DNA of 64,000 nucleotides from a virus. Numbering within the stretch: position 1 is the first letter of the stretch; every line of letters starts with the position of its first letter. The stretch lies in the IMG/VR virus record IMGVR_UViG_3300009320_000004, positions 1 to 64,000 of that record. One strand, given 5' to 3'. A program made the position numbers and the translations under genes. The notes under the pieces were generated by a model that worked only from the letters and a program-made list of their open reading frames with translations, had not been told where the DNA came from and searched no databases. Below are positions 30,966-44,941 of the stretch, piece after piece.

Positions 30966-31840
30966 TTGGCAAGGGGCGCGGCCTGTTCTTGGTCCGTCCG
31001 GTCTGCGAAAGTCAGGTCGGGCCGTTCGGTTCCGGTCCCCTGACACACCGTACCGAGGGCATTGCATGTCCCAAGAACGGGGCATCCGGGTTCACTTCCT
31101 TCCGCCGGGATGAAGAAGTCACTGTAGACCTTCCCTTCGCAGTAACCATATTGGGGTGCCGTGAGAATCACGCCACCTTCAAAGGGGCCAGCGTAGTACA
31201 CGGCGAATAGTGTTTTGTCGCAGTCCTCATAAGTCGTTTCGGGCGGGACACACCCCGCCATCTGGCACTTGAGATTCGGGCTGTCCGGGTCGCCCGCGCA
31301 CATCAAGGGGAGGCACAGGTCAGGGTCAGCCACATTCAGCGGGGAATCGAAGGCGCATGTAAATTCGAGTTCCGTATCCCAATAGCACAGCCTGTCTTCC
31401 GGCCACGGTTCACCGATGAGGGTCTTCCCTGCCGCGACTCCGGGGCATTCCACCACTTCCAGCCTCGGCGGTACGATGGTGCCGTCCGGGCCGATGATGG
31501 GGAACTTCTCGCACTTGGCCCCACCGGCACTTCCGGGGTTGCAGATTTCGGGACAGACCTCCTTCAAGTCATTCGCACCCGAATACCCGTTGCCCTCGGC
31601 GTCGAAATGGATTGTACGCAGCTCCGTGAACCCGCTTGCCGGGGTGTCTGACGGGTAGAGGCAGTAGAGCTGCTCATCCCCCTCGGGGTGGACGCAGCAC
31701 CGTACCTGCGAGTCCACGTAGTCCAGCGTCGAGAACTGGTCAGGATTCCACGTAATCAGCTCGGGATTCGGGCCGTCGGCTCCGCATCCCAGCGCCATGG
31801 CCGTGATGGCCAAAATGAGCATCAGCTTCAAGGTCTTCAT
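30962..31840 (-). CDS. Cysteine-rich secreted lipoprotein (moron-like)
   Basis: This is a 292-residue protein on the opposite strand to all tail genes around it. The N-terminus is a classical lipoprotein signal: MKTLKLM, a hydrophobic core, then MALGC with Cys19 as the lipidation site. The mature part has more than fifteen cysteines in scattered pairs (VRCCVHPEG, CPEICNPG, CYWDTELEFTC), suggesting a disulphide-rich exported domain. It probably sits on the host envelope, where phage lipoproteins often block superinfection or alter receptors; that role is inferred. It has its own upstream element, identical over 32 bp to the one before the WGR gene, and an AGGAGG ribosome-binding site. Its stop overlaps the spike gene stop. 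Confidence 0.75.
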   Translation of the reverse strand: MKTLKLMLILAITAMALGCGADGPNPELITWNPDQFSTLDYVDSQVRCCVHPEGDEQLYCLYPSDTPASGFTELRTIHFDAEGNGYSGANDLKEVCPEICNPGSAGGAKCEKFPIIGPDGTIVPPRLEVVECPGVAAGKTLIGEPWPEDRLCYWDTELEFTCAFDSPLNVADPDLCLPLMCAGDPDSPNLKCQMAGCVPPETTYEDCDKTLFAVYYAGPFEGGVILTAPQYGYCEGKVYSDFFIPAEGSEPGCPVLGTCNALGTVCQGTGTERPDLTFADRTDQEQAAPLAN

Positions 31841-31873
31841 CGTTTGGCCTCCTTGGAAATTCTCCTCTCATGT

Positions 31874-31905
31874 ACTCAACTCGCCAGTTTCGGCTCTAAG
31901 CCCCC
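31874..31905 (-). promoter_or_regulatory. GGGGGCTTAGAG element, copy A (lipoprotein leader)
   Basis: On the minus strand this reads GGGGGCTTAGAGCCGAAACT and continues to GAGTTGAGT. All 32 bases are identical to 44910-44941 on the plus strand. TATTCA lies immediately upstream and could be a -10 hexamer. The RNA could form two small hairpins: GGCT-TAG-AGCC and AACT-GGCG-AGTT. It ends about 33 bp before the lipoprotein ATG, so it is probably a promoter start region plus 5-prime leader. Confidence 0.65.
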
Positions 31906-32124
31906 TGAATAGGGAAATATTCGCAAGGTCGTCTAGGGCAGCGGTATGATGTCTAATACGTTCTTTGAAAACCAGTGGTTGCTGGTTCTTCCAAGAAGTT
32001 TGGAAGGCAAAACCACTGACGAATCAAGGGGCGGTCAGTTAGGTCGGTTTTTCCTCTATTTTAGGACAAAGGTGAAAGCCTGTTCTAAAAAGAGGCTATC
32101 GAAACGCACGACGGGAGGCTCAGG
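31906..32124 (+). other. Non-coding leader between lipoprotein and virion gene
   Basis: Between the divergent starts at 31840 and 32125 lie 284 bp with no supported gene. The plus-strand part is AT-richer than the surroundings. It contains a 6-bp hairpin (AACCAG/CTGGTT, 31970-31987) and a stronger one with arms 32053-32067 (CCTCTATTTTAGGAC) and 32082-32095 (GTTCTAAAAAGAGG), one bulge and one G-U pair. The second lies 30 bp ahead of the ATG and may be an mRNA leader structure. A D-loop-like AGGGCAGCGGTA at 31936 does not extend into a tRNA. Confidence 0.45.
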
Positions 32125-32955
32125 ATGCGAGTCCTTGTTGATTGGAGAACGCACGCGGCAGGCGCTCCCAGCGTCACACAGGTCGAGAAAGTCCCGTCCG
32201 AAGACACCCCGATTCCCATCAATGGGAAGTACGCCCTCCCCATCGTTCACGGCGTGGACTTCGAGGTCGAGGACACCGACTACGTGCTGCCCATCGATGG
32301 CGGCGATATTTCGAGCAAGGCGTATGCCCAGCTCGTCGCCATGTACCCGATGTTCGAGTACATCTACTTCAACCCGCTGCTGACCGAGGCGCACGTCGAT
32401 GAGCTGGACGTGGACGCAGAGTTCGCGGACTACGACGCCCCGGCTCCTTGGGGACCGTCCCCGCCCAACGCGCCGGTTCTGTACCCATGCAGATGTCAGG
32501 TAGGCCGCCCGGCCTCGTACCCGGAGGACCACGGCACCTTCCCGATGCTGACGGCCCTCCTTCCGGCCAACGAGGCGGTGCCGTCCACGCAACCTCCCAA
32601 TCCGGGGATGCTCATCACCGACAACATCGACATCTCCGCCTACACGGGTGCGGCTGGGGCCGACGAGTTCATGGTCTATTGGAAGCTCTACGCTTTCGAT
32701 GTGACGGATGACCGACAGGCCAATTACGGGGCGCACGCGGGGGAGAACACCCCGGCATACCGCAACCTGTACGAGACGGACCAAGAGCCGGACGGGTTCA
32801 CCGTCTGGATTTCTCCCGATGACGGTGGCCACTGGTGCGAAGTGGGGCTTCTGGAAGGCATCGCCTTCACCTCCGGCACCACGGCCTTCAGGCTGGCGTT
32901 CAAGAACACGACCAGCGACAAGATTTACATCGCGGCCTTCGCGGTACTTTTTTGA
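32125..32955 (+). CDS. Virion-associated protein
   Basis: This 276-residue protein starts with ATG after GGGAGG. It is acidic and beta-rich (FEVEDTDYVLPIDGG, then DISAYTGAAGADEFMVYWKL) and ends in alternating hydrophobic residues (DKIYIAAFAVLF), as in virion proteins that close on a beta sheet. No cysteine motif, signal peptide or enzyme signature is visible. It is the first gene after the leader and is translationally coupled to the HNH gene (TGATG). Its place among the fibre genes suggests a tail or fibre-base component; the name is by context only. Confidence 0.55.
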   Translation: MRVLVDWRTHAAGAPSVTQVEKVPSEDTPIPINGKYALPIVHGVDFEVEDTDYVLPIDGGDISSKAYAQLVAMYPMFEYIYFNPLLTEAHVDELDVDAEFADYDAPAPWGPSPPNAPVLYPCRCQVGRPASYPEDHGTFPMLTALLPANEAVPSTQPPNPGMLITDNIDISAYTGAAGADEFMVYWKLYAFDVTDDRQANYGAHAGENTPAYRNLYETDQEPDGFTVWISPDDGGHWCEVGLLEGIAFTSGTTAFRLAFKNTTSDKIYIAAFAVLF

Positions 32956-33695
32956 TGACTGCCCGTATTCTAGGAACCCTCTGTAAAAGAGGGCATGAGT
33001 CAGCCCCCGGCAGCGGGAAAAGTTGGCGCAGACTTGTACTCACAGGAGCCAAAGCCGGAACTCCCACGGAATGCTTGGAATGCAAAGCACTTACGGACAG
33101 AAGGTACAGGCAAACGGACAAATATAAGTTGCAATGCACCGCCTACAATAAGAAGTACGCTGCCACAGCAAGGGGCAGAGAGTTGCGAAAAGAGGGTACT
33201 GCCCGATACCTCAAATCGGAGAAATACCGCGCCACGAAAAAGGCTTGGAGGGACAAGCATCCTGAAACAGTAGCCGCTTCGCAACGCAGAGCTTGGGAAA
33301 AAATAAAAGGGAACCCCGAAAAGCGGACCCGAACCCTATTGCGTGTCGCATTCCATAACAGGATGAAAATCCTGTCGAAATCGGGGAAACGCCGCCCCGC
33401 CAAAGAATACGGGGTAGATTACGAAGCAATCTTTAACGAATTAGGTCCTCGTCCTTCTTCAGAGCATTGGCTGGACCACATCGTACCTGCGGGATACTTC
33501 GACCATGAGGATTCAGACCAAATTGCGATTTGCTGGTCCCCTGCGAATCTGAGGTGGATTCCCCGACAGGAGAACCAGAAAAAGAACGGCAAGCTGCCAG
33601 TGAGGTGGCCTACGGGTCTTCCCTTTATTCTTGGTACAGGACCCCTAGCCCGCGCCAACCCTGAAGGGGTACAGTGTTTGGCAGGTGGAGGCTGA
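32955..33695 (+). CDS. HNH homing endonuclease (free-standing)
   Basis: This is a 246-residue basic protein. The C-terminal HNH core is clear: DHIVPAGYF (His175), PANLRW (Asn198) and RQENQKKNGK (Asn207) form the H-N-N metal-binding and catalytic set. The N-terminus has two cysteine pairs (LCKRGH, CLECKALTD) typical of HNH nucleases with a small zinc-binding knuckle, followed by a long lysine/arginine-rich helical linker. The ATG overlaps the preceding stop (TGATG), and the stop lies inside the ribosome-binding region of the next gene. The coding sequence is clearly more AT-rich than the flanking structural genes, consistent with recent transfer as a homing gene. Confidence 0.9.
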   Translation: MTARILGTLCKRGHESAPGSGKSWRRLVLTGAKAGTPTECLECKALTDRRYRQTDKYKLQCTAYNKKYAATARGRELRKEGTARYLKSEKYRATKKAWRDKHPETVAASQRRAWEKIKGNPEKRTRTLLRVAFHNRMKILSKSGKRRPAKEYGVDYEAIFNELGPRPSSEHWLDHIVPAGYFDHEDSDQIAICWSPANLRWIPRQENQKKNGKLPVRWPTGLPFILGTGPLARANPEGVQCLAGGG

Positions 33696-33696
33696 C

Positions 33697-36600
33697 ATGA
33701 GCAAAGACCTTGGAAACGGCGTCTCCCGTACCCTCGATGCCGTTCATCGGCAGTTCGCAGGGATGGTGTTCCAGAAGGGAAAGCCTCCTCTCGACGCCGA
33801 GCTGAACCTCGCAGGGCAGGTGGACTGGGAGAACCAGCGGCAGGCGGTCCAGTCCATGATGCCGTCCGGGTTCTTCCTCGACCCAACGCGCCCCATGCAG
33901 GACTACCAGTTCGCGCAGGCGTGGTCCAATTACTTCACCCTCGGCAACCCCAAGACCCCCGTGGGAGTTCACGAGGGCGACCGGGAGTTCCCGGTGGTCT
34001 GGGCGAACGTCAACGGCTGGGTGTTCCCCATCGTCGGGACCGACGTGGACCACGAGGGCGACCTCCGCAACCTCGTCAAGCTGTACCCGCCCCCGGAGTC
34101 GGATGCCCGTATCGACCTCGTGTTCCTCGAAGCATGGCTCACGAACGTCGCACCGAACCCTTCGACCGTGAACAAGCCCGCCGTGGACAAGCTGTGGAAG
34201 TACGGCAACGTCCAGTACGGCGGGACGAATCTGGCGGATGACCTTGAAGACCCGACCATCGGGTTCGAGACGACCGAGCGCCTTCAGCTCCAATACAGAA
34301 TCCGGGTCTTCGGGTCCGGTGCCGGGCTGGGCGCGAGTGTGGCCCTCGACATCTATCCCGACGGACTGGGCGACCCCAACGTCCTCGGGCAGGGGACCGC
34401 GACTCTTCCGGTGGCTGGCCTCTACTACACGAACATGGGCAAGGAGCTGGGCGACCCGGCGCTGTGGCGTGCCGGTGACGGCGACCCGAACAACTCTCTC
34501 GGCACCTACGACGGTTACACCTACGCGACCCCCATTGCCGCCGTGTTCCGCCGCAACTCGAACGTCTACGTGGCCGTGACCCAGAGCGGCAACCCGAACC
34601 AGAACGGAGCCTTCGACCGCTCCCCCGGCACCAAGTACCTGCCGGACCCGCTCACCGGGTGCCGGACGCTCCTGACCGCGACGCTGACCTCGGACCTGAA
34701 CGACACCGACGGCGTGGCGGCCCTTGCGACCATCGACGTGACCAACCTGAACGGCTCCGGCTGGGAGGACGACAAGCACGTCCTCACGTCCTGCTTCATG
34801 GTCCTCGACGACGAAATCATCGGCATCGGGGCGGTGGACCTCATCGCCAACACCGTCACCATCCCCGCCGGGGGTCGTGGTCGGTACGCTTCTGCCGTGG
34901 GGGGTCATGCCGCCGGTACTCCCATCCTCTTCTACCAGCCGCGCCCGGACGGCCTGTACGCCGACCAGATTGCCGAGACGGACGTTCTCGACCTCCGGCG
35001 TGGTGCGAACGCCAACGACTGGGACTACACCCGCCTGCTGTCGCACAACGTGGCAGCCATCCTGCGCGGGGACCTGCACACCGCATGGAAACGCTCGGGA
35101 CCGGGCGATACCCAAGGCCCGGTGGTCCACGAGGTGGACTACCTGTTCGCGGACGGCTCGACCGCCGTACCGAACCACACCGAGGCACTCGACGGGCCGG
35201 ACGGCATCCGGCAGGTCTGGTCCGACGGGGCGGCCATTCAGCGCGACCTGACGCTGATGCTCGACAACGACGCGACGCAGGACCAGAACACGGTCGGCTT
35301 CACCAACAACACCTTCGACGCCACCTGCCAGTGGGACGTGGGGCCGGACTTCCGACCCAGCGGCTTCATGAACGTGGCCGGACTGGCATCCTCCAACGTC
35401 TGGACCAACGGCACGAGCATCTTCCTCTACATCGGGGGCGAGGATGGCTCCTCGGGCGCTCGTGGCACCTTCAGGGATGGTTCCGAGCGGGCTGTCCGGT
35501 TCCTGACCCCTCGGGAATACTGGAAGTCGGGATACCCCACTCTGGCACCGGACAACGGCGACCAGTACCCGTGGTCCATGCGCTTCGTCGATGACGGCGC
35601 TCTGGCCCCGGCGACCACCATGCGGGCCTTCGAGCCAGCTCCTCCCGGCCTCTCCGCCGCCGAGGCAGCCCGGCACGTCGGACCCATGTACCCGTGGCGG
35701 CACCTGTGGTTCGAGTACCCCTACGTGGTCCTCGGCGGACTCCTGCGGCCCGGACTCAAGCTCTCCGTGGCCGCCGCCGACCTCTCAGTCCATGCCAACC
35801 CGGCTTTCGTCGAGCTGGACACCGGCATCGACTTCGACGCGGCTGGGGTCTACTACTCCAAGGACGCCGCCGGGAACTTCGAGAACACCCCCGCCAACGT
35901 CTCGGCTCCCCTACTGCGGGACAGCCGGACTCTGTTCGGGATGCTGACAGCCGACGGGAAAGACCGCTCCGGTTACTCCTCCGAAGTCTACCTCGTCCTT
36001 TACGGCGACACTGTGGACAGGAACAACAACGGCGCGTTCCGTGTCGTGGGGGCAGGCACAGCCGCCTCCGGGTACACCGAGTACCGGGCCAGCAACGCGA
36101 CCTCCCTCGTCCTCGCCCCCTTGAGCGCGGACTTCACGGCCATCGACAACACGACCGGCGAAACCCTCGAATGCGAGTTCCGGTCGCAGGAACACAACGC
36201 CGACACGGCTTCCTCCCATGTCGGGGGTTCTTCCGACCTCTGCATCGTGATGACCGACCTCGGTGGCCAGTTGACCTCCGCATTGGCCGGACTCGACCCC
36301 GACCACCCGTGGAAGGCGGCGCACCTCGGTCACGGCGAAGCCTATGACCTTGAGATGCCGCTGGACGGCTCGGGCGTTCCCATCATCGAGAACAAGATGG
36401 TCCTGAACATGACCCTCCTCTACCATCCGGGCAGGGGAGGCACGGCCCGCGTCGCTGACGAGTTCGTCCGCTTTGCCATGAAGGGCGGCAGCACCACCCA
36501 GACGGTCAACGGATACCTGCGCCAGAACCGGGCAGCACTCGACACCACCTTCTCGGCCTTCTCCGGCATCCCGTCGGACGAGACATTCTGGGATGCCGTC

Positions 36601-39600
36601 CACATCCAGACGTGGAACCGGCTCCCCGCCGACGGCTGGCACGCCCCGGATGGCGCGGACATGGGCGGTGGGCTGGCGAGCTTCACCGAGACAACCCGCG
36701 AACATGAGCTGTTCATCGACCGAGGCAGCAAGACGGTCGTCTTCCGCCCCTTCAGGGACATGGAGATGACTCTCCACACCTTCTCCTTCGACGACGTGAT
36801 GGGCGGGACCGAGTGCCTGTTGGGCGGCTACAACTACCCGACGGGGGCGATGGCCGCCAAGGACGGCCTGCAAATCTTCACCGGCAGCGACACCTCCGGG
36901 AAGCAGATGGGCTTCGTGGTCCCGAGGGAGTTCATGCCCCGCTTCGGCAGGCAGGACATCCCCTATTTCAACAGGCTCGGCGCGACCGACCCGTTCTTGC
37001 CCGGAATCAACCACCTGTTCATCGACTCCGCCACCCTCACGAGGGGCGTGTTCAACATCATCGGCGGCTGGTCGAACCTCGGCTCCGGCCCCGAGGTCAA
37101 CCCGCTGTTCTTCACGACTGACGACCCAACCCACTACGGCGAGTCCGCCACGGTGGTCGGCACCGTGAACAACCATCCCCAGTACAAGGCCCGCAAGACG
37201 ACGGACATCGACGAGAACATCGCGCTGGCCCCCAACGTCATCGCGGACCTCGAAGCCGTCAACTCCGCCGACTTGGGCAAGGGGCTGAAGGGTATTCAGC
37301 TTCCTCCGTACCTCGGCATCGCCCGGCTCTACGGCGTGTATGACCTCCGCGACTGGGAAACCAAGGGCGGACGGACGTGGAAGACCAACCGCTACGAGGT
37401 GGAGGACGACCCGGCACCGAACCTGTTGAGGGACGACGCCACGCAGCAGACTCTCTTCATCTTGCAAGACGGAGCGCAAGACCTGACACAGGGGACGGGC
37501 GACCACACCTACATCGTCCCCTCGAACGTCATCGACATCACCCGCGCCCTTCAGTACGCGGACGGCGATGAGTTCGAGGACTACGACTACGTGGTCGAGG
37601 CGACCATCTTCGGCTTCGCCCATGGCTTCATCGACGAGAACAACTACGTCCTCGTGCGCCACTTCAACGGCGCAGGGACTCCTCCGAACATCGACGGCAC
37701 GGACATGGAAATCGAGGGCGTTCACATGGTCGTACCCACGGCTGCCGGGTACAACCACCAGTGCTACGCCGCCTACGACCGGACGGTCTATCAGGGCGAC
37801 CCCTACATGACCCGCTCCGGCGACGCCAAGACCAACTCCGACTACGAGCATCGCTATGGCCAGCTCGCCATGTCGCACCAGTGGGCCGTGGAGACGGTCA
37901 TCCAGCAGTACGACTCGAACGGCAACTTCGTCCCGGAAATTCCGAACGCCCGCGCCTTCGAGGTTCTGGCGACGATGGACTTCTACACCACGATGGGGAC
38001 CGGGAAAATCGGGGGCATCATGCGCCCCGGCACCTCCCTCGACATCGGGTACACCGAGATGCAGAGTGCCAACGGGCTGCCCGACTACCGCGCCCCGGAC
38101 GCGACGGACTCCCCGGCGTGGCGCATTCTGCCGAGGGCATACACCGAGGGGCAGGTGACGAACCCCAACCGGGCATCCATCGGTCTTCAGGGCTGGACAG
38201 AGGGGTGGAACCCGTCCGACACCCAATACCTCATCGTCCGCATCAACAAGCTCGACGGGACAGCCGTGGACCTCTACGCCTCGACCCCGGACAACGTGGC
38301 GGTCCTGACTGCTGCGCCCTACAACGTACCTGCGGGCAACATCTTCCTCGTGGACGAGTTCGGGAAACTGACGACCTACAAGGAGACGGTCAACATTGCC
38401 GGTCCCACAACTGTTGAGCCGGGCCAAGTTCTGATGGTGGGGACCGCCACGGGCGAACTGGCCAACGCGGCAGTCGGGGATGCCGTCATCGTCAACCCCC
38501 GTGTCGCAACGCTGGATGATATGTACTTCGTCGGGCGGGCCGGGGCCGGGGGTGTCAGCATCTACATGGTCAATCGTTGGGGCTGTGCCTTCGAGCAGGA
38601 GGTCAGCGTCTACGACTCCGTGTTCGACCAGAACTTCGACCTCAGTCTCATCTTCCCCGCTCCGGGCAACATTCCAGTCGGGTCTTCCGTGGTCGGGACC
38701 ACCACCATCACGGGAATCGGGGCCGAAGCCAACACGGCTCTCATCGTTGCAGACCCCCAGACGGGGACTCTGGCGGACGGTCTGGTGTTCACGGCATCCG
38801 TGACCAACCCCGGCACTGACGAAGTGACCCTCGTGGTTCACAACCTCACGAATGCGGCTGTAGTCAGCGCAGGGCGGCCAGACCAGACCTTCCACATTTG
38901 CATCCTGAAGGAGTCCGAACAGGCGACCCGACGGGTGAACTTGAACAACTACGACCTCGAAGTGACAGTCATTCACCGCGAGGAGAACATCGCGGGGACC
39001 ATGCGGAACCTCAACGACCTCATCTGGCAGCACCCGGACCTGTACCAGACGCTCTGGGGCGAGAACGATGCCGGGGATGCCAAGGTCACTCTCCGGGCTG
39101 TGCCGACAGGAGCCGAAGGCAACGGAATCTCGGTCGAGGTGCGGTCTGAAGGTGTGTTCCCGGACACGATGGCCCACTACATCACGGTCATGACCGAGTG
39201 GCCGAACCAGCTCCCGTACACCGGGCTGACCACCTTCGGCCACCTCCAAGGCGGAGAGGACATCCCGATGAACGGGGGTGAAGGCACGAGCCAACTCTCC
39301 CTCACGGGCATGACCGAACGTCTGCCCATGGGTGTCCTCTTGCAGGACAGCGACTTCATCTGTGAGAACCCGCTGCGGGACAACGCCACGGCGATGAACG
39401 CACGTCCGGCTGGCCCAAGGCCGGTCCAGACCCAGATACCGCTCACCACGGGCGGCGTGGAGTACACGCGCTCGATGGGCGAACCGGGCGAACTCATCGC
39501 GTTGGCCGACGGCTCTGTCTCGGTGTCCAGCTTCGCGGCGTGGACAGAGGCAACCCCGACGGGTTCGAGACGCTTCCGCATCTTCCGTGGAGGAGGCTCG

Positions 39601-40020
39601 GCCTACATTCTGTCCGGGGACAATCCCGGTGGACCCATCGACTGGGTGTCCGACACCTTCCCGGCGGCAAGCCTGCCCGTCCTCAAGGGCGGCGTGCTGG
39701 CCTGCCGGGCCATGCTGGTGCGGAACTTCTACGAGGAAGCGAACCCGGCGGGCGGACCCTACAAGGTGTCCGACGGCGACGAAATCCAGATGGTCGTTCT
39801 CACCTACGGGATTCTGGGACACCCCGGCGAGCAGGAGGACGGCATCCTCCTCCGGGGACTCATCGGGCCGTCAGGGTATGGCGAGGGGTACGCGGCGGCA
39901 GACCGCTACCGCATTGATGGACGGCCCATGGTTCGGGCTTTCACTCAGGAAACCCCGAACCCGGCCTTGGTTCAGGTCGCCCCTCACCCGAACGACCGCA
40001 GCCCTGAGAGGCGGGAATGA
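33697..40020 (+). CDS. Giant virion protein, paralogue of the 18094-21705 gene
   Basis: This is a 2107-residue protein. ATG 33697 was chosen over an in-frame GTG 12 bp upstream because GGTGGAGG lies between them. The N-terminal module (MVFQKGKPPLDAELNLAGQV, then LFLEAWLTNVAP-like text as FLEAWLTNVAPNP and LQLQYRIR) is shared with the 1203-residue protein. Later parts include beta-rich domains, one near residue 1800 with LRAVPTGAEGNGI and LQGGED resembling a domain in the paralogue. No catalytic motif is seen. It is likely a long fibre or tail-tip component. Its stop overlaps the next start (ATGA). Confidence 0.65.
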   Translation: MSKDLGNGVSRTLDAVHRQFAGMVFQKGKPPLDAELNLAGQVDWENQRQAVQSMMPSGFFLDPTRPMQDYQFAQAWSNYFTLGNPKTPVGVHEGDREFPVVWANVNGWVFPIVGTDVDHEGDLRNLVKLYPPPESDARIDLVFLEAWLTNVAPNPSTVNKPAVDKLWKYGNVQYGGTNLADDLEDPTIGFETTERLQLQYRIRVFGSGAGLGASVALDIYPDGLGDPNVLGQGTATLPVAGLYYTNMGKELGDPALWRAGDGDPNNSLGTYDGYTYATPIAAVFRRNSNVYVAVTQSGNPNQNGAFDRSPGTKYLPDPLTGCRTLLTATLTSDLNDTDGVAALATIDVTNLNGSGWEDDKHVLTSCFMVLDDEIIGIGAVDLIANTVTIPAGGRGRYASAVGGHAAGTPILFYQPRPDGLYADQIAETDVLDLRRGANANDWDYTRLLSHNVAAILRGDLHTAWKRSGPGDTQGPVVHEVDYLFADGSTAVPNHTEALDGPDGIRQVWSDGAAIQRDLTLMLDNDATQDQNTVGFTNNTFDATCQWDVGPDFRPSGFMNVAGLASSNVWTNGTSIFLYIGGEDGSSGARGTFRDGSERAVRFLTPREYWKSGYPTLAPDNGDQYPWSMRFVDDGALAPATTMRAFEPAPPGLSAAEAARHVGPMYPWRHLWFEYPYVVLGGLLRPGLKLSVAAADLSVHANPAFVELDTGIDFDAAGVYYSKDAAGNFENTPANVSAPLLRDSRTLFGMLTADGKDRSGYSSEVYLVLYGDTVDRNNNGAFRVVGAGTAASGYTEYRASNATSLVLAPLSADFTAIDNTTGETLECEFRSQEHNADTASSHVGGSSDLCIVMTDLGGQLTSALAGLDPDHPWKAAHLGHGEAYDLEMPLDGSGVPIIENKMVLNMTLLYHPGRGGTARVADEFVRFAMKGGSTTQTVNGYLRQNRAALDTTFSAFSGIPSDETFWDAVHIQTWNRLPADGWHAPDGADMGGGLASFTETTREHELFIDRGSKTVVFRPFRDMEMTLHTFSFDDVMGGTECLLGGYNYPTGAMAAKDGLQIFTGSDTSGKQMGFVVPREFMPRFGRQDIPYFNRLGATDPFLPGINHLFIDSATLTRGVFNIIGGWSNLGSGPEVNPLFFTTDDPTHYGESATVVGTVNNHPQYKARKTTDIDENIALAPNVIADLEAVNSADLGKGLKGIQLPPYLGIARLYGVYDLRDWETKGGRTWKTNRYEVEDDPAPNLLRDDATQQTLFILQDGAQDLTQGTGDHTYIVPSNVIDITRALQYADGDEFEDYDYVVEATIFGFAHGFIDENNYVLVRHFNGAGTPPNIDGTDMEIEGVHMVVPTAAGYNHQCYAAYDRTVYQGDPYMTRSGDAKTNSDYEHRYGQLAMSHQWAVETVIQQYDSNGNFVPEIPNARAFEVLATMDFYTTMGTGKIGGIMRPGTSLDIGYTEMQSANGLPDYRAPDATDSPAWRILPRAYTEGQVTNPNRASIGLQGWTEGWNPSDTQYLIVRINKLDGTAVDLYASTPDNVAVLTAAPYNVPAGNIFLVDEFGKLTTYKETVNIAGPTTVEPGQVLMVGTATGELANAAVGDAVIVNPRVATLDDMYFVGRAGAGGVSIYMVNRWGCAFEQEVSVYDSVFDQNFDLSLIFPAPGNIPVGSSVVGTTTITGIGAEANTALIVADPQTGTLADGLVFTASVTNPGTDEVTLVVHNLTNAAVVSAGRPDQTFHICILKESEQATRRVNLNNYDLEVTVIHREENIAGTMRNLNDLIWQHPDLYQTLWGENDAGDAKVTLRAVPTGAEGNGISVEVRSEGVFPDTMAHYITVMTEWPNQLPYTGLTTFGHLQGGEDIPMNGGEGTSQLSLTGMTERLPMGVLLQDSDFICENPLRDNATAMNARPAGPRPVQTQIPLTTGGVEYTRSMGEPGELIALADGSVSVSSFAAWTEATPTGSRRFRIFRGGGSAYILSGDNPGGPIDWVSDTFPAASLPVLKGGVLACRAMLVRNFYEEANPAGGPYKVSDGDEIQMVVLTYGILGHPGEQEDGILLRGLIGPSGYGEGYAAADRYRIDGRPMVRAFTQETPNPALVQVAPHPNDRSPERRE

Positions 40021-40415
40021 TTCACGACCCTTGTTCCATTGACCGTTTTATCGAAGTCCTGAACTCCATGTTGGAGGCGGACCCGGTTGCAACCCGCGCA
40101 CTCGTGGAGACGCGAGTGCCGTGCAATGCGACCATGGCAGCCCATCCCACCGTTCAGGTGTTGACAGACCCCAACAACCCGGAGAGCTACTCTGTGGGCC
40201 TTCTGGGCGTCGTGAACGGCATCGGGGGCATCGACGATAAAGACTACGGCCCCATCTCGGCCCACTTCGATGTCGTCTGCACCATGAAGGGCTGCATGGT
40301 GACGCCCGAGGAAATCGGGGACTTGCAGGAAGGCGAACTATGTCCCAACTGCGGGAAGCCCCTCGAAGTCGGGGACTTGACCCACTTCGCCCGGACAGTG
40401 CACAAGGAGGAGTGA
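40017..40415 (+). CDS. Small zinc-ribbon protein
   Basis: This 132-residue protein is translationally coupled to the giant virion gene (ATGA overlap). The C-terminal half has two cysteine pairs (VVCTMKGC and LCPNCGKPLEVGD) forming a likely zinc ribbon. The N-terminal half is helical, with a GLLGVVNGIGGIDD turn. Similar small zinc-ribbon proteins are common next to phage structural genes, but no function can be assigned from sequence. It is followed closely by the SAP-like protein, with AAGGAGGAG across the stop. Confidence 0.65.
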   Translation: MIHDPCSIDRFIEVLNSMLEADPVATRALVETRVPCNATMAAHPTVQVLTDPNNPESYSVGLLGVVNGIGGIDDKDYGPISAHFDVVCTMKGCMVTPEEIGDLQEGELCPNCGKPLEVGDLTHFARTVHKEE

Positions 40416-40416
40416 G

Positions 40417-40800
40417 ATGCCTTTCGTGTCACGACAACAAGCGGACCCCAAGGTTCGGGTTCTGCACGAGAAGAAGCACCAGCGTCAGCTCAAGCAGCAG
40501 CTCCGCCTGCCGGGCCTCTCTCCGGCGCAGGTCAAGGCCATCCAAGAGGAGCTGAACTCGGTGCCTTACGCTCGGGTCTACACGGACAAGAAACCGCCCA
40601 AGGCCGGGGCTATCAAGCTCGAACCCCACCCCATTGAGGCACCCAAGCGTGCCGCGTCCGCGACCCCGCGTCGCGCTCCTTCCAAGGCGCAAGAACTGTC
40701 CGCGCTCAAGAAGACGGAACTGGTGAAGCTGGCCAAGCGCCTTCACGTCCCTGTTTCGGGGACGAAGAAGGACTTGCTTGACCGTATCAAGTCCAAGTAG
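40417..40800 (+). CDS. Small basic protein with C-terminal SAP-like motif
   Basis: This is a 127-residue lysine/arginine-rich protein. The last 35 residues (LKKTELVKLAKRLHVP, then SGTKKDLLDRIK) match the helix-turn-helix layout of SAP or Rho-N-type nucleic-acid-binding modules. A basic helix (HEKKHQRQLKQQLRLPG) and a proline/alanine linker precede it. It may bind DNA during packaging or late expression; this is inferred from the domain alone. It is the second of three short genes after the fibre block, each with a strong ribosome-binding site. Confidence 0.6.
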   Translation: MPFVSRQQADPKVRVLHEKKHQRQLKQQLRLPGLSPAQVKAIQEELNSVPYARVYTDKKPPKAGAIKLEPHPIEAPKRAASATPRRAPSKAQELSALKKTELVKLAKRLHVPVSGTKKDLLDRIKSK

Positions 40801-40811
40801 GAGGTTACTCC

Positions 40812-41366
40812 ATGAAACGTCTCATCCTTACCGTGGCCATCATGATGATGCTGGCCGTACCGGCAATCGCACAGGAGACAGACCCCGACGCGGGGGTCAC
40901 GGCTGTCGAGGTCATGGAACCAGCAGCCGTTGTCGCTGACGAAGCCCCGGTCGTGGCCGCTGCCCCCGAAAAGGTCGAAGCTCCGGCAGCCCCAGAACCT
41001 CCACCCGTCCCCGCTGCGGTGAAGCCGCCCGAGACACCCGAGGAGGCAGCCCAGATGATGGGGCAGGTCCTCGCCGGAGGAGGGAGTTGGACAGTCCTCG
41101 CCGGGCTTATCATCATGGTCTGCATCTGGGTCATCCGTCGAAGAGGGTGGTTGGGCCAGCTCAAGAAGTCCGTCCCGTGGATTTCCTTCGTGGTCGGGGG
41201 CCTCGCCACGTTCGCCAGCTATCTGGCAGCGGGGTACAGCATCGAGAACGCAGCGGTGTTCGCCTTCCTTGCCGGTGGTCAGGGCATCGCGTACTGGGAG
41301 ATGGCGTTCAAGCACGTAGACAAGAAGATTCCGGCGAAGAAGCCGCCGGTCCCGGCCCCTCAGTGA
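40812..41366 (+). CDS. Exported/membrane protein, possible holin-like
   Basis: This 184-residue protein starts after TAGGAGG. Residues 1-20 form a signal peptide ending in VPAIAQ. An Ala/Pro/Glu-rich stretch (25-80) follows. Two hydrophobic segments (VLAGLIIMVCIWVI, then WISFVVGGLATFASYLAAGY) and a third weaker one (NAAVFAFLAGGQGIAYW) suggest two or three membrane spans, with a basic proline-rich tail. A signal peptide plus spans at the end of the late genes fits a lysis or envelope protein such as a holin, but no endolysin lies beside it, so this remains a guess. Confidence 0.6.
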   Translation: MKRLILTVAIMMMLAVPAIAQETDPDAGVTAVEVMEPAAVVADEAPVVAAAPEKVEAPAAPEPPPVPAAVKPPETPEEAAQMMGQVLAGGGSWTVLAGLIIMVCIWVIRRRGWLGQLKKSVPWISFVVGGLATFASYLAAGYSIENAAVFAFLAGGQGIAYWEMAFKHVDKKIPAKKPPVPAPQ

Positions 41367-41372
41367 GGGCTA

Positions 41373-41421
41373 GGAGGCCCAGCCGGTAGAGGCCGAGACG
41401 ATGGCGTCCGGCTGGACCTCC
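41373..41421. terminator. Long hairpin in a convergent gap, probable bidirectional terminator
   Basis: The gap between the convergent genes ending at 41366 (+) and 41450 (-) contains a 13-bp stem with one mismatch: GGAGG, C, CCAGCCGG pairing with CCGGCTGG, A, CCTCC around a 21-base loop. No U-run follows on either strand, so it would act as a strong stem rather than a textbook intrinsic terminator, or as a 3-prime end stabiliser. Its position is what supports a termination role. Confidence 0.5.
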
Positions 41422-41449
41422 CGATTCCTGCTTTCATCGCACCTCCCTG

Positions 41450-42415
41450 TTAAGCCAAATACTGTCCGTAGAACTGACCGATGAGGCCAGCGACGGTCAC
41501 AAAGTGTTTCGCCTTCACCCGCCAGTGCTTGTTCACGGTGTCCCATGCACGGTCGCGGTAGGGGACCGCGTTCTTGAGGGCAGCCACGAACCCCGAATCG
41601 TAGGGGGTGATGACTTCGAGGAGTCCCTGTCCGTTGAGGTTCACACAGACTTCCCCCGGCACGAACCCGCTGCCTGCCCCGGTCGTTCCGGTGGACGGGG
41701 CAGGGATGGATGTCGGCTGTGCGGTCCGGTGGCGGAAGGCCAGCACGTTGCGCCAGTAGGTCTTGACGATGGTCCAGACCCGTTCCTTGGCCCCGGTGGG
41801 GTTATCCCCACAGGCCAGCTCCCGTCCGTAGTGAAGGCCGAGGATGGCCAAGAAGTGGCCCTTCTCCGCGTAGGGGATGGTCCACTTGACCTTGGTCCCG
41901 ACCTTGGAGTTCTCGTCCTTGACCGCGCCCTGCACGAAGCCCATGTCCTTCTCGAACTTGTACTTGGTGCCGACGTAGACCACCCACTCGGTGCCGGTGT
42001 CCACCATCCGGGCTGCGGTGCGGTCGATTTCGAGCTTGTCCGCCAGCTCCGTGTACCCGAGGGTGCGGATGATGGCGGAGCAGCGGAAGACCTCCTCCCG
42101 GTTGTCGTAGTTGCATGAGGCCCAATAGATGAGCAGGTTGCAGCCCTTCCGAGCATTCACCTTGTCGTTGTTCACGAGCTGAAGGAAGCCATCCACGATG
42201 TTGTCCGGCAGCCCTGACACGGCCACGAGGCCGAGGGCGTCCAGCACCATGTCGTCGGTCGGCTGATGCTCGGGGTTGTAGTATTTCTTGGAGCATACAG
42301 GACCTATGCCATGCTCTAAGGACTCTGCATCAGTCAATCGGGCGTGACAAACACAGCAATTTGTGGCGGTCATCAGGGCGATACGGTCAAGTTGCGCTCT
42401 TGTTGAGGGTTTCAT
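41450..42415 (-). CDS. DUF6011-like zinc-finger protein
   Basis: This is a 321-residue protein. ATG 42415 was chosen because TAGGAGG lies directly upstream; the open frame runs further but has no better start. The N-terminus (NCCVCHARLTDAESLEHGIG followed by PVCSKKYY) is the DUF6011-type zinc knuckle found in many phage and actinobacterial proteins. The C-terminus (FVAALKNAVPYRDRAWDTV, NKHWRV) resembles the short module seen in HARP/SNF2-like helicases (K...VP...R.WD...K.W), suggesting nucleic-acid binding. It follows the LAGLIDADG gene on the same strand, with copy D of the GGGGGCTTAGAG element and a 7-bp hairpin in its leader. A shortened second copy of its zinc finger lies at 44330-44458. 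Confidence 0.7.
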   Translation of the reverse strand: MKPSTRAQLDRIALMTATNCCVCHARLTDAESLEHGIGPVCSKKYYNPEHQPTDDMVLDALGLVAVSGLPDNIVDGFLQLVNNDKVNARKGCNLLIYWASCNYDNREEVFRCSAIIRTLGYTELADKLEIDRTAARMVDTGTEWVVYVGTKYKFEKDMGFVQGAVKDENSKVGTKVKWTIPYAEKGHFLAILGLHYGRELACGDNPTGAKERVWTIVKTYWRNVLAFRHRTAQPTSIPAPSTGTTGAGSGFVPGEVCVNLNGQGLLEVITPYDSGFVAALKNAVPYRDRAWDTVNKHWRVKAKHFVTVAGLIGQFYGQYLA

Positions 42416-42431
42416 GTGACACCTCCTACAG

Positions 42432-42463
42432 TTTCTACTCTGTAGAAAGCTCTCTAAGCCCCC
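42432..42463 (-). promoter_or_regulatory. GGGGGCTTAGAG element, copy D, with leader hairpin
   Basis: On the minus strand GGGGGCTTAGAG (42463-42452) is followed by the hairpin TTTCTAC-AGA-GTAGAAA (42448-42432) and then the TAGGAGG of the DUF6011-like gene. It overlaps the last codons and stop of the LAGLIDADG gene. No convincing -10 is present (CACAAAT), so this copy is weaker than A-C. Confidence 0.45.
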
Positions 42464-43094
42464 ATTTGTGGGCCATGCAGGTTGGTTCAAGATAGGGGTG
42501 TGTGATGGACAGGAACTTCTCGGCTTCACCTTTTGACATCCAAATCCCTTTGTAAGGGGATTTCGGTTTTCGCTTGTTGGGCTGTTTCCAGATATGTGCC
42601 TCAATCTCAAAACGCTCTTGTAGCATGGTTATCAAGGCTTTGTTTTCTTTCGGGGTGAATGAGAAGGACGCGATTCGGATGAGCTTGTAGACGGTGCCAT
42701 CTTTGTTCAATTTAGTCAGAAATGACCCATCATCCATGTACCAGATAGCGAGAGCCAAAGGTCCGACTTGGGAAATCAGTTCCGGCGGGACGATTTTCTT
42801 CTTGGCCGGGACTGCCAGAGAAGCCCATTCTGTGAGGTGCGGGTGCCTCACTGTTCTGACTCGTACCCGTTCCGTTGGGTGGTCTACTTTTGAAACTAGG
42901 GGGCCGAGTAGGTTGGCTTTGTGCAGGGCATAAGGTTCTTGTTTCAGGCCGTGCTTAATACCCAATCCCCAATTCAGGCTTCCGGGAGGAGGTCTTTCAA
43001 GATGCCCGTCTCCCAAGATGGACCCCATTATCACTTGGTCCATTGCCGGGGAGACGACGATTTTGGCATTTGCTTCCATGGGGAAGCGGCCCAC
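42435..43094 (-). CDS. LAGLIDADG homing endonuclease (free-standing)
   Basis: This is a 219-residue protein from GTG 43094; an ATG five codons later is an alternative, and neither has a strong Shine-Dalgarno. Two LAGLIDADG motifs are visible: QVIMGSILGDGHLE near residues 20-33 and LALAIWYMDDGSF near 115-127, with a catalytic acid (D) at the end of each. That makes it a single-chain pseudo-dimeric enzyme. Basic C-terminal text (KQPNKRKPKSPYKG) fits DNA contacts. It sits between a methyltransferase and a zinc-finger gene, and its last codons are shared with the promoter-like element of the following gene. It is AT-rich compared with the tail genes. Confidence 0.85.
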   Translation of the reverse strand: MGRFPMEANAKIVVSPAMDQVIMGSILGDGHLERPPPGSLNWGLGIKHGLKQEPYALHKANLLGPLVSKVDHPTERVRVRTVRHPHLTEWASLAVPAKKKIVPPELISQVGPLALAIWYMDDGSFLTKLNKDGTVYKLIRIASFSFTPKENKALITMLQERFEIEAHIWKQPNKRKPKSPYKGIWMSKGEAEKFLSITHPYLEPTCMAHKWGLRELSTE

Positions 43095-43109
43095 GCGCCT
43101 GTTGGGTGT

Positions 43110-43919
43110 CTAAATACATCTCAGTATTTCGTAAGCAACCTGTGGGACTATCGCATTTCCGTAGCCGCTAATTTCGCCCATCCTGCCGGGTACATCATCA
43201 GTAATCCGATCCATTCTGGGTTCAGGTACCCATCCTTCTCGTCCAAGAAAGCGGCCTGATTCCGCAGGCGGCAACTGCTTGTATGTTTCTCCTGCAAATA
43301 CTTTACCCAAGCTCTCTGTGATCCTTGCCGCTTCGCATCCTCCACCGTCGGAGTTTGCAATAATCCACGTTCTTTCCCGTTGATGTGAGGCACCAACGCA
43401 GGCTGCTGATATAATATGCCATTCCGCATCGAACCCGAGCGTCCATAAATCTTGCAGGATGGACGCAAGCCCATTACCTCGCAGGGAGCTGGCATTTTCA
43501 ATAATGACCCATTTTGGCCGAACTTCTCCAATAACTCTGAACATTTCCGACCAAAGACTGGATCTATGCCCAGACAAGCCCGCTCCGGTCCCGGCTCTGC
43601 TAATGTTTTGACATGGGAATCCCCCTGTGATGATGCCAATCCCTTCATATTTGCTCCCTTCTAATTCTCTAATGTCTTTGTGTATCGGTATGCCCGGAAA
43701 GTTCTTGCTTAATACCCTCCTGGAAAAATCTTCTATCTCACAAAACGCCACAGTTTTAAGCCCTGCCCATCTTGCAGCAAGAGCAAAGCCACCAATACCA
43801 CTAAATAAATCTAGGTGGGTTCTGGCTTGGGTGCTACGACTCCCAACAAGACGTTCAACGCCGACTGGCGAGCAGTTGCGATCTTTTGGTGCGCTATCAA
43901 AAAGTAGTAGTTGTTTCAT
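43110..43919 (-). CDS. DNA cytosine-5 methyltransferase
   Basis: This 269-residue protein starts at ATG 43919 with GAGGAG just upstream; a GTG at 43928 has no ribosome-binding site. The conserved C5-methyltransferase motifs are in order: I (LDLFSGIGGF, 36-45), IV (GGFPCQNIS, with catalytic Cys103), VI (ENAS, 141-144), VIII (QRER, 180-183) and X (GYGNAIVPQVAYEIL) at the C-terminus. The target-recognition region is short. It would protect phage DNA from restriction or modify it for regulation. Two thirds of it overlaps a second plausible coding frame (43148-43648). It is AT-richer than the structural genes and lies in the accessory block next to the LAGLIDADG gene. Confidence 0.95.
   Translation of the reverse strand: MKQLLLFDSAPKDRNCSPVGVERLVGSRSTQARTHLDLFSGIGGFALAARWAGLKTVAFCEIEDFSRRVLSKNFPGIPIHKDIRELEGSKYEGIGIITGGFPCQNISRAGTGAGLSGHRSSLWSEMFRVIGEVRPKWVIIENASSLRGNGLASILQDLWTLGFDAEWHIISAACVGASHQRERTWIIANSDGGGCEAARITESLGKVFAGETYKQLPPAESGRFLGREGWVPEPRMDRITDDVPGRMGEISGYGNAIVPQVAYEILRCI
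43148..43648 (-). CDS. Overprinted ORF inside the methyltransferase gene
   Basis: This is a 166-residue frame shifted +1 relative to the methyltransferase and running the same way over its residues 91-257. It starts at ATG with GAAGGGAG five bases upstream. Its sequence (SQGDSHVKTLAEPG; IYGRSGSMRNGILYQQP; GLLQTPTVEDAK; LNPEWIGLLMMYPAGWAKL) resembles a phage protein family I remember as separate small genes beside C5 methyltransferases, with MRNG..Y.LP, LPTP and NPxWVEWLMGxPxGWTxL motifs. Either both frames are translated, or the remembered family reflects the same frame of related methyltransferase genes being annotated. Confidence 0.45.
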   Translation of the reverse strand: MKGLASSQGDSHVKTLAEPGPERACLGIDPVFGRKCSELLEKFGQNGSLLKMPAPCEVMGLRPSCKIYGRSGSMRNGILYQQPALVPHINGKERGLLQTPTVEDAKRQGSQRAWVKYLQEKHTSSCRLRNQAAFLDEKDGYLNPEWIGLLMMYPAGWAKLAATEMR

Positions 43920-43954
43920 GCTCCTCACTTCGGGCGTTGGCCAGCGGGTTAACT

Positions 43955-44086
43955 TTAGTCGTTATTTGTTGCTTTACATTCAGGGCAGAGCCGGTTTGCC
44001 AAATCCTTATACGTGATTCTGTAACCCGGATTCTTAACTCGTCGTCCGCAGTCCCGACACCGAATGTTGTCGAGGTCGATACTCAT
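43955..44086 (-). CDS. Tiny zinc-ribbon protein
   Basis: This 43-residue frame is MSIDLDNIRCRDCG, then RVKNPGYRITYKDLANRLCPECK and a short tail. Two CxxC pairs separated by about 20 residues make a textbook zinc ribbon, which is why the ORF is called despite its size. It lies between the methyltransferase and a small membrane protein on the same strand with no overlaps. The upstream sequence has no clear Shine-Dalgarno (ATACCATCCAACC), so translation may depend on the neighbours. Confidence 0.55.
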   Translation of the reverse strand: MSIDLDNIRCRDCGRRVKNPGYRITYKDLANRLCPECKATNND

Positions 44087-44117
44087 GGTTGGATGGTATC
44101 AGGGTCCGATGCCGTGG

Positions 44118-44339
44118 TCAACTTTCTTCAGATTTCCGCAATTCCCTGAAGCTACGTCTTCTTGCAAGATAGACCGGGAATGTGATGGGCCAGAACAGTA
44201 GGCAAAGAACAAACCACTCGAAAGGGGCAAGCTGAACTTGTCCTCGGTCGTACAATTTGGGAACACCAAGGGCGCGGGCATCCGCCCATACCCAAACCGA
44301 TGTAGCCACAATGACCACGGGCAATAAGATTACAGGCAT
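44118..44339 (-). CDS. Small two-span membrane protein
   Basis: This 73-residue protein starts after GGAGGGAGG. The first hydrophobic segment (VILLPVVIVATSVWVWAD) and the second (FEWFVLCLLFWPITFPVYLA) flank a short polar loop (ARALGVPKLYDRGQ), and an RRR-rich end should stay in the cytoplasm. The pattern W.WADARALGVPK...P..W.....LLFWP..FP.YL is common in small bacterial inner-membrane proteins of unknown role. A host-membrane location is likely; a role in exclusion or lysis timing is speculation. Confidence 0.7.
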   Translation of the reverse strand: MPVILLPVVIVATSVWVWADARALGVPKLYDRGQVQLAPFEWFVLCLLFWPITFPVYLARRRSFRELRKSEES

Positions 44340-44458
44340 CGAACCCTCCCTCCGATACCATGCTCCACGGACTCGGCGTCGGTCAGGTGCGCCCGGCAGA
44401 CACAGCAGTTGGTCGCCGTGACCTGCGCGATGGCAGCGTGGTCAACGTGAGTCGTCAT
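44330..44458 (-). CDS. Truncated copy of the DUF6011-like zinc finger
   Basis: This 42-residue frame has the same core as the N-terminus of the 41450-42415 protein: TATNCCVCRAHLTDAESVEHG against TATNCCVCHARLTDAESLEHG, but then breaks off before the PVCSKKYY half of the finger. It starts after AGGAGG and overlaps the ends of both neighbours. It is either a small remnant after duplication, disrupted where the membrane gene was joined on, or a minimal half-finger. The lost second cysteine makes a normal zinc site unlikely. Confidence 0.5.
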   Translation of the reverse strand: MTTHVDHAAIAQVTATNCCVCRAHLTDAESVEHGIGGRVRCL

Positions 44459-44786
44459 AGTCCTTCCTCCTGATGGCCCCCACCAGCAAGTAGATGATGA
44501 TGGCCAATACCAGAGCCATGCCGACGAGCATCAGGGGCGTCCCCCAAACGGGGTGTTTGATGTGGAAGGCAGGCGTTTCGTCCATCCACGGGACGGCGCT
44601 CCGAACGGCGGGGACGAACTCGATGGCCATTATCAACGCCCAGCTCAGGAGCAGGGTGGAGAACCTCGTGATGTCCCATGTCCGTTCGCGGACGTAGGGT
44701 TGGATGATGTCCATGGCGGCCAAGAAAAGACCGGCAGCTCCGCCCACGACGACCGACCTCCACGGGAACTCCGTGAAGCCGGACAT
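44442..44786 (-). CDS. Small membrane protein with three spans
   Basis: This 114-residue protein has hydrophobic segments near 13-27 (VVVGGAAGLFLAAMD), 40-60 (RFSTLLLSWALIMAIEFVPA) and 82-105 (GTPLMLVGMALVLAIIIYLL), with a basic tail (GAIRRKDYDDSR). It is the first gene behind copy C of the GGGGGCTTAGAG element, with a leader of about 80 nt. The ATG lacks a strong Shine-Dalgarno (only GGGA eight bases upstream). It heads a cluster of tiny genes of the kind many phages express early, but no family is recognised. Confidence 0.65.
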   Translation of the reverse strand: MSGFTEFPWRSVVVGGAAGLFLAAMDIIQPYVRERTWDITRFSTLLLSWALIMAIEFVPAVRSAVPWMDETPAFHIKHPVWGTPLMLVGMALVLAIIIYLLVGAIRRKDYDDSR

Positions 44787-44867
44787 GAGAATCCCGAAGA
44801 CGACCCCGAGGAAACGGCAACATCGTCATCACCTCATCTTCCTACGTACCCCACTCGCGTCACGCGA

Positions 44868-44880
44868 CTCTAAGCCCCCC
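44868..44880 (-). promoter_or_regulatory. GGGGGCTTAGAG element, copy C
   Basis: On the minus strand GGGGGGCTTAGAG is followed at once by the hairpin TCGCG-TGA-CGCGA. TATGAA lies just upstream (44887-44882) as a possible -10. It reads toward the membrane protein gene starting at 44786. It forms an inverted pair with copy B, arms of 13 bp, across a 28-bp AT-rich spacer. Confidence 0.55.
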
Positions 44881-44901
44881 TTTCATAAAAGAAAAATAAA
44901 C

Positions 44902-44941
44902 TACAATCGGGGGGCTTAGAGCCGAAACTGGCGAGTTGAGT
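44902..44941 (+). promoter_or_regulatory. GGGGGCTTAGAG element, copy B, with -10-like box
   Basis: TACAAT (44902-44907) is followed by the G-run and the 32-bp element at 44910-44941, identical to copy A. It ends 26 bp before the WGR gene ATG. No -35 of the RpoD type is evident at the right spacing, so a phage-specific polymerase or activator may be used. Together with copy C it forms a divergent promoter region. Confidence 0.6.

Follow-up and report, generated by a model that had tools for sequence, protein, structure and literature searches.

A two-box element, probably a promoter class private to a jumbo phage, precedes non-structural genes and is re-spelled in related giants

A 64,000-base window of viral DNA, the first part of the 122,781-bp virus record IMGVR_UViG_3300009320_000004 (G000), contains four copies of a short motif, GGGGGCTTAGAG, that an initial annotation had proposed as a shared control site. 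The motif is the 5′ box of a two-part element, G(G/A)GGGCTTAG-N13-GAGTWG, found throughout the record. The sequence evidence argues, with a probability of about 0.83, that the two boxes together form a class of promoters that is private to a jumbo phage and drives a number of its non-structural genes. The argument is built on the fixed spacing of the two boxes, their oriented placement between genes, the RNA genes that it precedes in relatives, the retention of the element at orthologous genes, and the uniformity of its spelling within each phage. Relatives carry their own uniform spelling before the same genes, which suggests a separate control code for each virus.

The bipartite element in G000

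Listing GGGCTTAG across the whole record gave 18 places, each with a second box downstream; four of these lie in the window (Table 1). GCTTA is present in all 18 copies, and the boxes are separated by 13 nucleotides (nt) in 17 of them and by 14 nt in the other. When the copies were scored in a two-box scan, 11 had no mismatch, five had one and two had two, as compared with 0, 0 and 4 matches in the reversed-sequence control; matches with three or four mismatches were at background level and were dropped. The record also holds seven exact copies of GGGGGCTTAGAG and none of the reversed pattern. Within the window, the four copies listed by the initial annotation are all present (31894-31905, 42452-42463 and 44868-44879 on the minus strand, and 44910-44921 on the plus strand), although the third ends at 44879 and not, as first given, at 44880. 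Their number is above chance, with four matches at one mismatch or fewer against 0.33 expected, and none of 100 shuffled sequences reached four.

A column logo of the 17 copies with N13 spacing shows two blocks separated by a weakly conserved spacer, with no conserved block further upstream and no inverted-repeat symmetry between the boxes. Because the logo lacks a conserved block upstream of the G-run, the sequences TATTCA, TACAAT and TATGAA, initially noted before three copies, are best regarded as single-copy features. A transcription start at or just before GGGGG with such sequences as −10 boxes is not supported; given the second box, GAGTWG, transcription more probably begins beyond the two boxes. 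The 5′ box often directly follows the stop codon of the preceding gene, and by direct listing an open frame begins, in every copy, 44-92 nt downstream of the first base of that box. The prospect that many copies might lie inside genes without orientation bias had been raised at the outset as a refutation; all 18 copies point into a start codon.

Two of the window copies share exactly the same spacer and, as originally reported, are identical over 32 bases, at 31874-31905 (−) and 44910-44941 (+); the gaps to their start codons, ATG 31840 and ATG 44968, had likewise been given correctly. Since the spacer is not conserved in the other copies, this identity looks like a duplicated promoter cassette, spacer included.

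Re-spelled elements in related phages

A profile scan matched a 1172-amino-acid (aa) protein of the window to Baseplate_J, and a search with this protein led to relatives that include a 435,804-bp record, G001 (63% identity). A match in the relatives' loci was found for 80 of the 113 called G000 genes, and the matches in G001 are largely collinear; G000 thus probably represents part of the genome of a jumbo tailed phage. A further record of 536,053 bp, G013, was reached through a sigma-like protein of G001 described below. Genes were predicted with a home-made caller, which places starts and small genes only approximately and mis-calls some G000 genes, as in the minus-strand call at 75909-78275 and the unit at 44442-44832.

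In G001, an element of the form G(G/T)CTTAYT-N13-GAGTAGTCT was first seen upstream of orthologs, with GAGTAGTCTRG as its 3′ box. The strict pattern has 54 copies against none reversed, and the working set comprises 62 copies with at most two mismatches. The G013 element, CTTACTT-N12-GCGTAGA, occurs 108 times exactly and 127 times with one mismatch or fewer, whereas the reversed pattern occurs 0 times and once. The core of the 5′ box is thus KCTTA in G001 and RCTTA in G013, and the 3′ boxes are GAGTWG in G000, GAGTAGTCT in G001 and GCGTAGATN in G013. The G001 logo has two blocks and nothing conserved upstream, as in G000. A weaker candidate, GGTAAC-N15/16-GGTAG, was found in a fourth record, G016, with 27 exact copies against none reversed, and 107 against 36 at one mismatch. 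In G013 the spacer is repeated letter for letter between boxes at several places (e.g. 38094+, 441960+, 444344+, 492464− and 494675−); whole promoter cassettes therefore appear to have been copied within that genome, like the 32-bp pair of the window.

Strict spellings do not cross among G000, G001 and G013: the 17 G000-type, 29 G001-type and 108 G013-type copies each occur in their own record only. Across the collection, the G001 spelling was found in 15 stretches, all within G001, and the G013 spelling in 75 stretches, mostly from G013, with single matches making up the remainder. The G000 spelling matched 27 stretches of the collection, each with only one or two isolated matches; these were judged by eye to be chance, since repeated copies are lacking. 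None of the 12 records reached by the baseplate protein has a copy of the G000 spelling, and the baseplate-region loci of the relatives contain no relaxed copy except one isolated match in locus L052. Searches with two element-driven proteins returned G001 alone or no match. In LR745208, the 120 nt examined at the ortholog of the 88093 gene contain no such element, and a genome-wide motif search was not made there.

Placement and retention at orthologous genes

Elements lie between genes and point into them. Only 1 of the 62 elements in G001 and 3 of the 127 in G013 fall inside genes, as compared with 88% and 83% of random positions, and a same-strand start within 100 nt follows 44 of 62 and 104 of 127, respectively, where random positions give 6.0% and 7.5%. 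With the same caller, 15 of the 18 G000 elements have a start within 100 nt (random, 4.6%) and 3 lie inside genes (random, 88%); the caller misses some genes in G000, and direct listing gives a start for all 18. The 3′ box begins mostly 24-70 nt before the start codon. Divergent pairs of elements within 130 nt number 4 in G000, 8 in G001 and 6 in G013, 18 altogether, and there are no convergent pairs. The 5′ boxes of divergent pairs abut (e.g. G001 237302/237348 and 270812/270856), which would leave little room for separate promoters upstream.

Additional evidence came from a comparison of orthologs defined as reciprocal best hits, in which an element was counted if it stood directly before the gene or at the head of its operon. 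All 9 G000 element genes with a G001 ortholog retain the element (6 directly, 3 at the operon head), as compared with 5 of 61 other genes (p 3e-8). From G000 to G013, retention is 8 of 8 (6 directly, 2 at the operon head) against 5 of 38 other genes (p 5e-6); these two counts exclude 9 (G001) and 10 (G013) of the 18 G000 element genes, for which there is no reciprocal ortholog. Between G001 and G013, 15 of 19 element genes retain it, against 27 of 171 others (p 3e-8).

Genes and RNA genes downstream of the element

The scan covered the products of all 18 element genes of G000 and of 30 in G001, where about 14 more genes stand no further than 120 nt from an element. Most have no match. Those of G000 that do are an HD phosphohydrolase, a PARP catalytic domain, an NAD-dependent DNA ligase and a DUF6011 protein, to which G001 adds rIIB-like, anti-restriction, HNH endonuclease, nicotinamide phosphoribosyl transferase and nucleotidyl-transferase-like proteins. 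For no scanned product of either phage is the best match a family of head or tail proteins, in agreement with the non-structural class first proposed; a terminase-small-subunit family appears among many short-domain hits for two G001 proteins. The largest element-free stretches, 71 kb each (G001 320193-391147 and G013 38094-109324), both contain orthologs of the baseplate/tail block of the window. Under a uniform model, the G013 gap is beyond the 99.9% level and that of G001 lies between the 95% and 99.9% levels. The early impression that copies avoid tail genes was borne out, in that the baseplate/tail region has no element.

In the relatives, elements also stand before RNA genes. One G001 element lies 31 nt before a transfer-messenger RNA (tmRNA) gene and another 26 nt before a transfer RNA (tRNA) gene, and G013 elements lie 45 and 89 nt before two tRNA genes. 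Six further elements of the relatives lie 145-337 nt before an RNA gene, two of them with a coding gene closer or within 251 nt. No tRNA was found in the G000 record. ARAGORN predicts tRNAs with the anticodons CTA and TTA at G001 241943-242033 (−) and G013 483473-483562 (−), each downstream of an element; by their anticodons these are possible suppressor tRNAs. Four G001 elements (391147+, 192163−, 192476− and 251199+) have no called gene close downstream and are followed by sequence that may fold into stem-loops and possibly represents small RNAs.

RNA structure downstream of the element

The small hairpin that the initial annotation placed after each window copy was not supported, as the stretch after CTTAG has a mean folding z of −0.43 ± 0.26 (standard error of the mean). 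The spacer plus 3′ box folds close to the level of shuffled sequences in all three phages, with mean z of −0.43 (G000), 0.06 (G001) and −0.13 (G013). Further downstream, the G000 leader has a z of −0.99 ± 0.36. Stem-loops starting at +11 to +18 were found for 98 of the 127 G013 copies, whereas 20 shuffles gave 56.6 on average and at most 67. Most of these stems start at +14 to +16, roughly 7 nt past the TAGATN hexamer, where the predicted transcription start would fall. There is no such excess at the probable start in G001 (34 of 62 against 33.8 shuffled) or G000 (9 of 18 against 7.2). G013 transcripts may therefore begin with a stem-loop. The proposal that the copies define regulon-type control of a distinct expression class is supported, while a class-wide 5′ hairpin, a TATTCA-like −10 box and a start at or just before GGGGG are not.

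Mechanism, candidate factor and alternative explanations

If the element is a promoter, its 5′ box would be read by a phage factor that redirects the host RNA polymerase, and would thus have a role like that of a MotA box or an alternative −35 sequence. The 3′ TAG box would then occupy the −10 region, and transcription would start about 15 nt after its first base, giving short leaders. The genes concerned would probably be early or middle genes.

A candidate for such a factor, and no more than a candidate, is a conserved protein with tandem sigma-region-4-like units and no sigma region 2. The G001 version is a 201-aa protein (31416-32021, −) with sigma-factor matches (phrog_351, 6.7e-15), and homologs are found in the collection at 33-71% identity (L131-L139), as well as in LR745208 and other relatives. 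Its structural model (mean predicted local distance difference test score, pLDDT, 71.5) has two helix-turn-helix (HTH) units, and the best Foldseek matches of the model are mostly to sigma region 4, none reaching E 0.001. Among eight homologs the first HTH varies while the second is nearly invariant, a pattern that does not settle which box, if any, the protein reads. A comparative survey reports minimal single-HTH sigma factors in one jumbo-phage group, where they probably recruit the host polymerase (PMC7824862).

A more specific proposal, tentative and on balance doubtful, is a private code in each huge phage of this lineage, in which dozens to more than a hundred promoters share one 5′ box, re-spelled genome-wide (GGGGCTTAG, G(G/T)CTTAYT, RCTTACTT and, for G016, perhaps GGTAAC), whereas the 3′ box retains its TAG. 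The 5′ box would be re-spelled in concert because a changing phage factor, possibly the tandem sigma-region-4-like protein, reads it on the host polymerase.

Several observations weigh against a promoter of this kind. The 3′ boxes GAGTWG, GAGTAGTCT and GCGTAGATN match TATAAT poorly, which makes their assignment to the −10 region less secure. A start near +15 would leave many G001 leaders only about 10 nt long, cutting into the Shine-Dalgarno region. A search of the G000 fragment did not turn up the sigma-like protein. Finally, for 18 of the 62 elements in G001 and 23 of the 127 in G013, the home-made caller gives no start on that strand in the next 100 nt; some of these precede RNA genes and the rest are unexplained.

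The element could instead be transcribed and act in the 5′ leader of the mRNA through structure or translation control, with promoters further upstream. It does stand a short distance before Shine-Dalgarno sequences, folding of the G000 leader is slightly stronger than that of shuffled sequences, and by eye the pyrimidine-rich spacers of some copies could pair with the Shine-Dalgarno sequence. This explanation is nonetheless quite improbable: an Rfam scan of the G000 record gave no match, the stem excess is missing from G001 and from the spacer and 3′ box of all three phages, no conserved upstream block is available as a promoter, and divergent 5′ boxes abut. In the relatives the element also precedes tmRNA and tRNA genes, where a translation leader would have no task. 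Least credible of all, to the point of being negligible, is chance or functionless copying of a repeat. While the 32-bp identity in the window and the recurring cassettes of G013 show that copying occurs, the shuffled and reversed controls, the placement of the copies and their retention at orthologs across changed letters speak against it.

Two further explanations concern what reads the element, and each is unlikely to a similar degree. The copies could be promoters of a phage-encoded RNA polymerase and not of host polymerase with a phage factor, as private and strict consensus sequences are known from polymerase-bearing jumbo phages such as AR9 (PMC5312081). However, searches with PF00562 and PF04998 (beta and beta′ subunits) found no match in G000, G001, G013 or G016, with positive controls recovered in 14 of 14 cases; divergent subunits could escape these Pfam models, and G000 is a fragment. 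A search for T7-type polymerase (PF00940) was void, as its controls gave no match. Alternatively, the 5′ box could be the binding site of a phage regulator, an activator or a repressor, on ordinary promoters. A MotA-type activator box would suit it, and regulators co-vary with their sites, but no conserved sigma70-type −35/−10 pair accompanies the element, and the constant distance to a second box is what a promoter would be expected to show. Downstream of the elements, sigma70-like pairs are not enriched over the reversed control, at 1 of 18, 2 of 62 and 2 of 127 against 0, 2 and 2 (G000, G001 and G013). If the regulator were an activator, this explanation would overlap with the favored one, a phage-specific bipartite promoter class.

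TTGACA-N16/17-TAnnnn pairs do follow an element at corresponding places in two phages (G001 84917+ and 135545−; G013 208006+ and 273543−), these places being the first tRNA cluster and the nicotinamide phosphoribosyl transferase gene.

Comparison with known systems

By analogy, the closest functional parallel is the T4 middle promoter, with its MotA box and sigma appropriation by AsiA and MotA. PMC2988021 describes about 58 such promoters, with a 5′ MotA box, (a/t)(a/t)(a/t)TGCTTtA, 12 ± 1 bp from the −10 sequence, serving replication, nucleotide metabolism and tRNA genes and including rIIB promoters. Similarly, the 5′ box here is centered on (G)CTTA, and the genes served include a ligase, tRNA genes and an rIIB-like gene. 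Unlike T4 middle promoters, which have a TATAAT −10 sequence, the element has GAGTWG, GAGTAGTCT or GCGTAGATN 13-14 nt downstream, and its upstream part in G000 is a G-run. A second parallel is with the start-associated sequences (SAS) and extended SAS (ESAS) of cluster K mycobacteriophages, which are short oriented repeats before non-structural starts, kept at gene families across phages, with an ESAS consensus that varies between subclusters (PMC3203893). SAS coincide in part with the ribosome-binding site, 3-7 bp ahead of the start codon, and ESAS are 17-bp imperfect inverted repeats, whereas the element here lacks inverted-repeat symmetry and is found 24-70 nt upstream of the start, measured from the 3′ box.

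For AR9, a phiKZ-like jumbo phage with its own RNA polymerases, PMC5312081 describes numerous early and late promoters of strict, private consensus that separate gene classes, and transcripts that include a tRNA gene. The AR9 consensus is AT-rich AAATATATATTAT-6N-G, or AACA-6N-TA/G, and is read by phage polymerases; unlike in AR9, no beta or beta′ polymerase subunit was detected with the Pfam models in the four records studied here. SPO1-type phages use alternative-sigma promoters with two boxes at promoter-like spacing, unlike the host consensus, and with box sequences that differ from those of the element. Unlike such phages, G000, G001, G013 and G016 have no detected sigma region 2 protein. 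Open-access literature on promoter motifs in such phages, in the portions available, does not name the element; subscription journals and preprints fall outside this scope.

The window copies and other candidate promoters

The 292-aa product of copy 1 (30962..31840) has no Pfam or PHROG match. The ortholog of the copy 2 gene has the element in G001 and stands in G013 at the head of an operon with the element. The copy 4 gene, 44968-45600, had been labeled WGR, a label that found no backing, as no WGR match was obtained at E 0.01. The window also has a minus-strand frame, 43110-43928, which by eye looks like that of a C5 DNA methyltransferase.

Table 1. Boxes of the four window copies and the genes into which they read
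Feature	Positions	Strand	Basis or remark
Copy 1, 5′ box GGGGGCTTAG	31896..31905	−	sequence, two-box scan
Copy 1, 3′ box GAGTTG	31877..31882	−	13 nt after 5′ box
Copy 1 gene, 292 aa	30962..31840	−	signal/lipobox-like N terminus by eye
Copy 2, 5′ box GGGGGCTTAG	42454..42463	−	sequence, two-box scan
Copy 2, 3′ box GAGTAG	42435..42440	−	sequence, two-box scan
Copy 2 gene, 321 aa, N-terminal DUF6011	41450..42415	−	Pfam 8.5e-9
Copy 3, 5′ box GGGGGCTTAG	44870..44879	−	sequence, two-box scan
Copy 3, 3′ box GAGTGG	44851..44856	−	sequence, two-box scan
Copy 3 first gene(s)	44442..44832	−	start uncertain; frames 44455-44829 and 44442-44786 differ
Copy 4, 5′ box GGGGGCTTAG	44910..44919	+	back to back with copy 3
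Copy 4, 3′ box GAGTTG	44933..44938	+	sequence, two-box scan
Copy 4 gene, 210 aa	44968..45600	+	G001 and G013 orthologs in operons headed by the element

Two other pairs of boxes were seen among the 202 element-free upstream regions of G001 and G000. GGG(G/T)-N19-22-GGTAG occurs in 14 of them against 1 reversed (e.g. G001 49909, 51579 and 54418; G000 67487 and 68276) and is possibly another promoter class. C(C/T)TAT-N10-14-GTAG occurs in 9 against none reversed (e.g. G001 337839 and 428553; G000 16570), in some cases upstream of structural genes, and is a candidate late promoter.

Implications

Little has been mapped of how uncultured jumbo phages control transcription. Promoters recognizable from sequence in three, and possibly four, related giants would allow the non-structural operons and RNA genes of these phages to be annotated by rule, and the element would offer a way to trace the factor by which the host polymerase is redirected. 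The most interesting aspect is that the recognition sequence appears to have changed in concert across a regulon whose gene set is unchanged. If the private code is real, it would deny co-infecting relatives and host genes the use of the phage's transcription apparatus.

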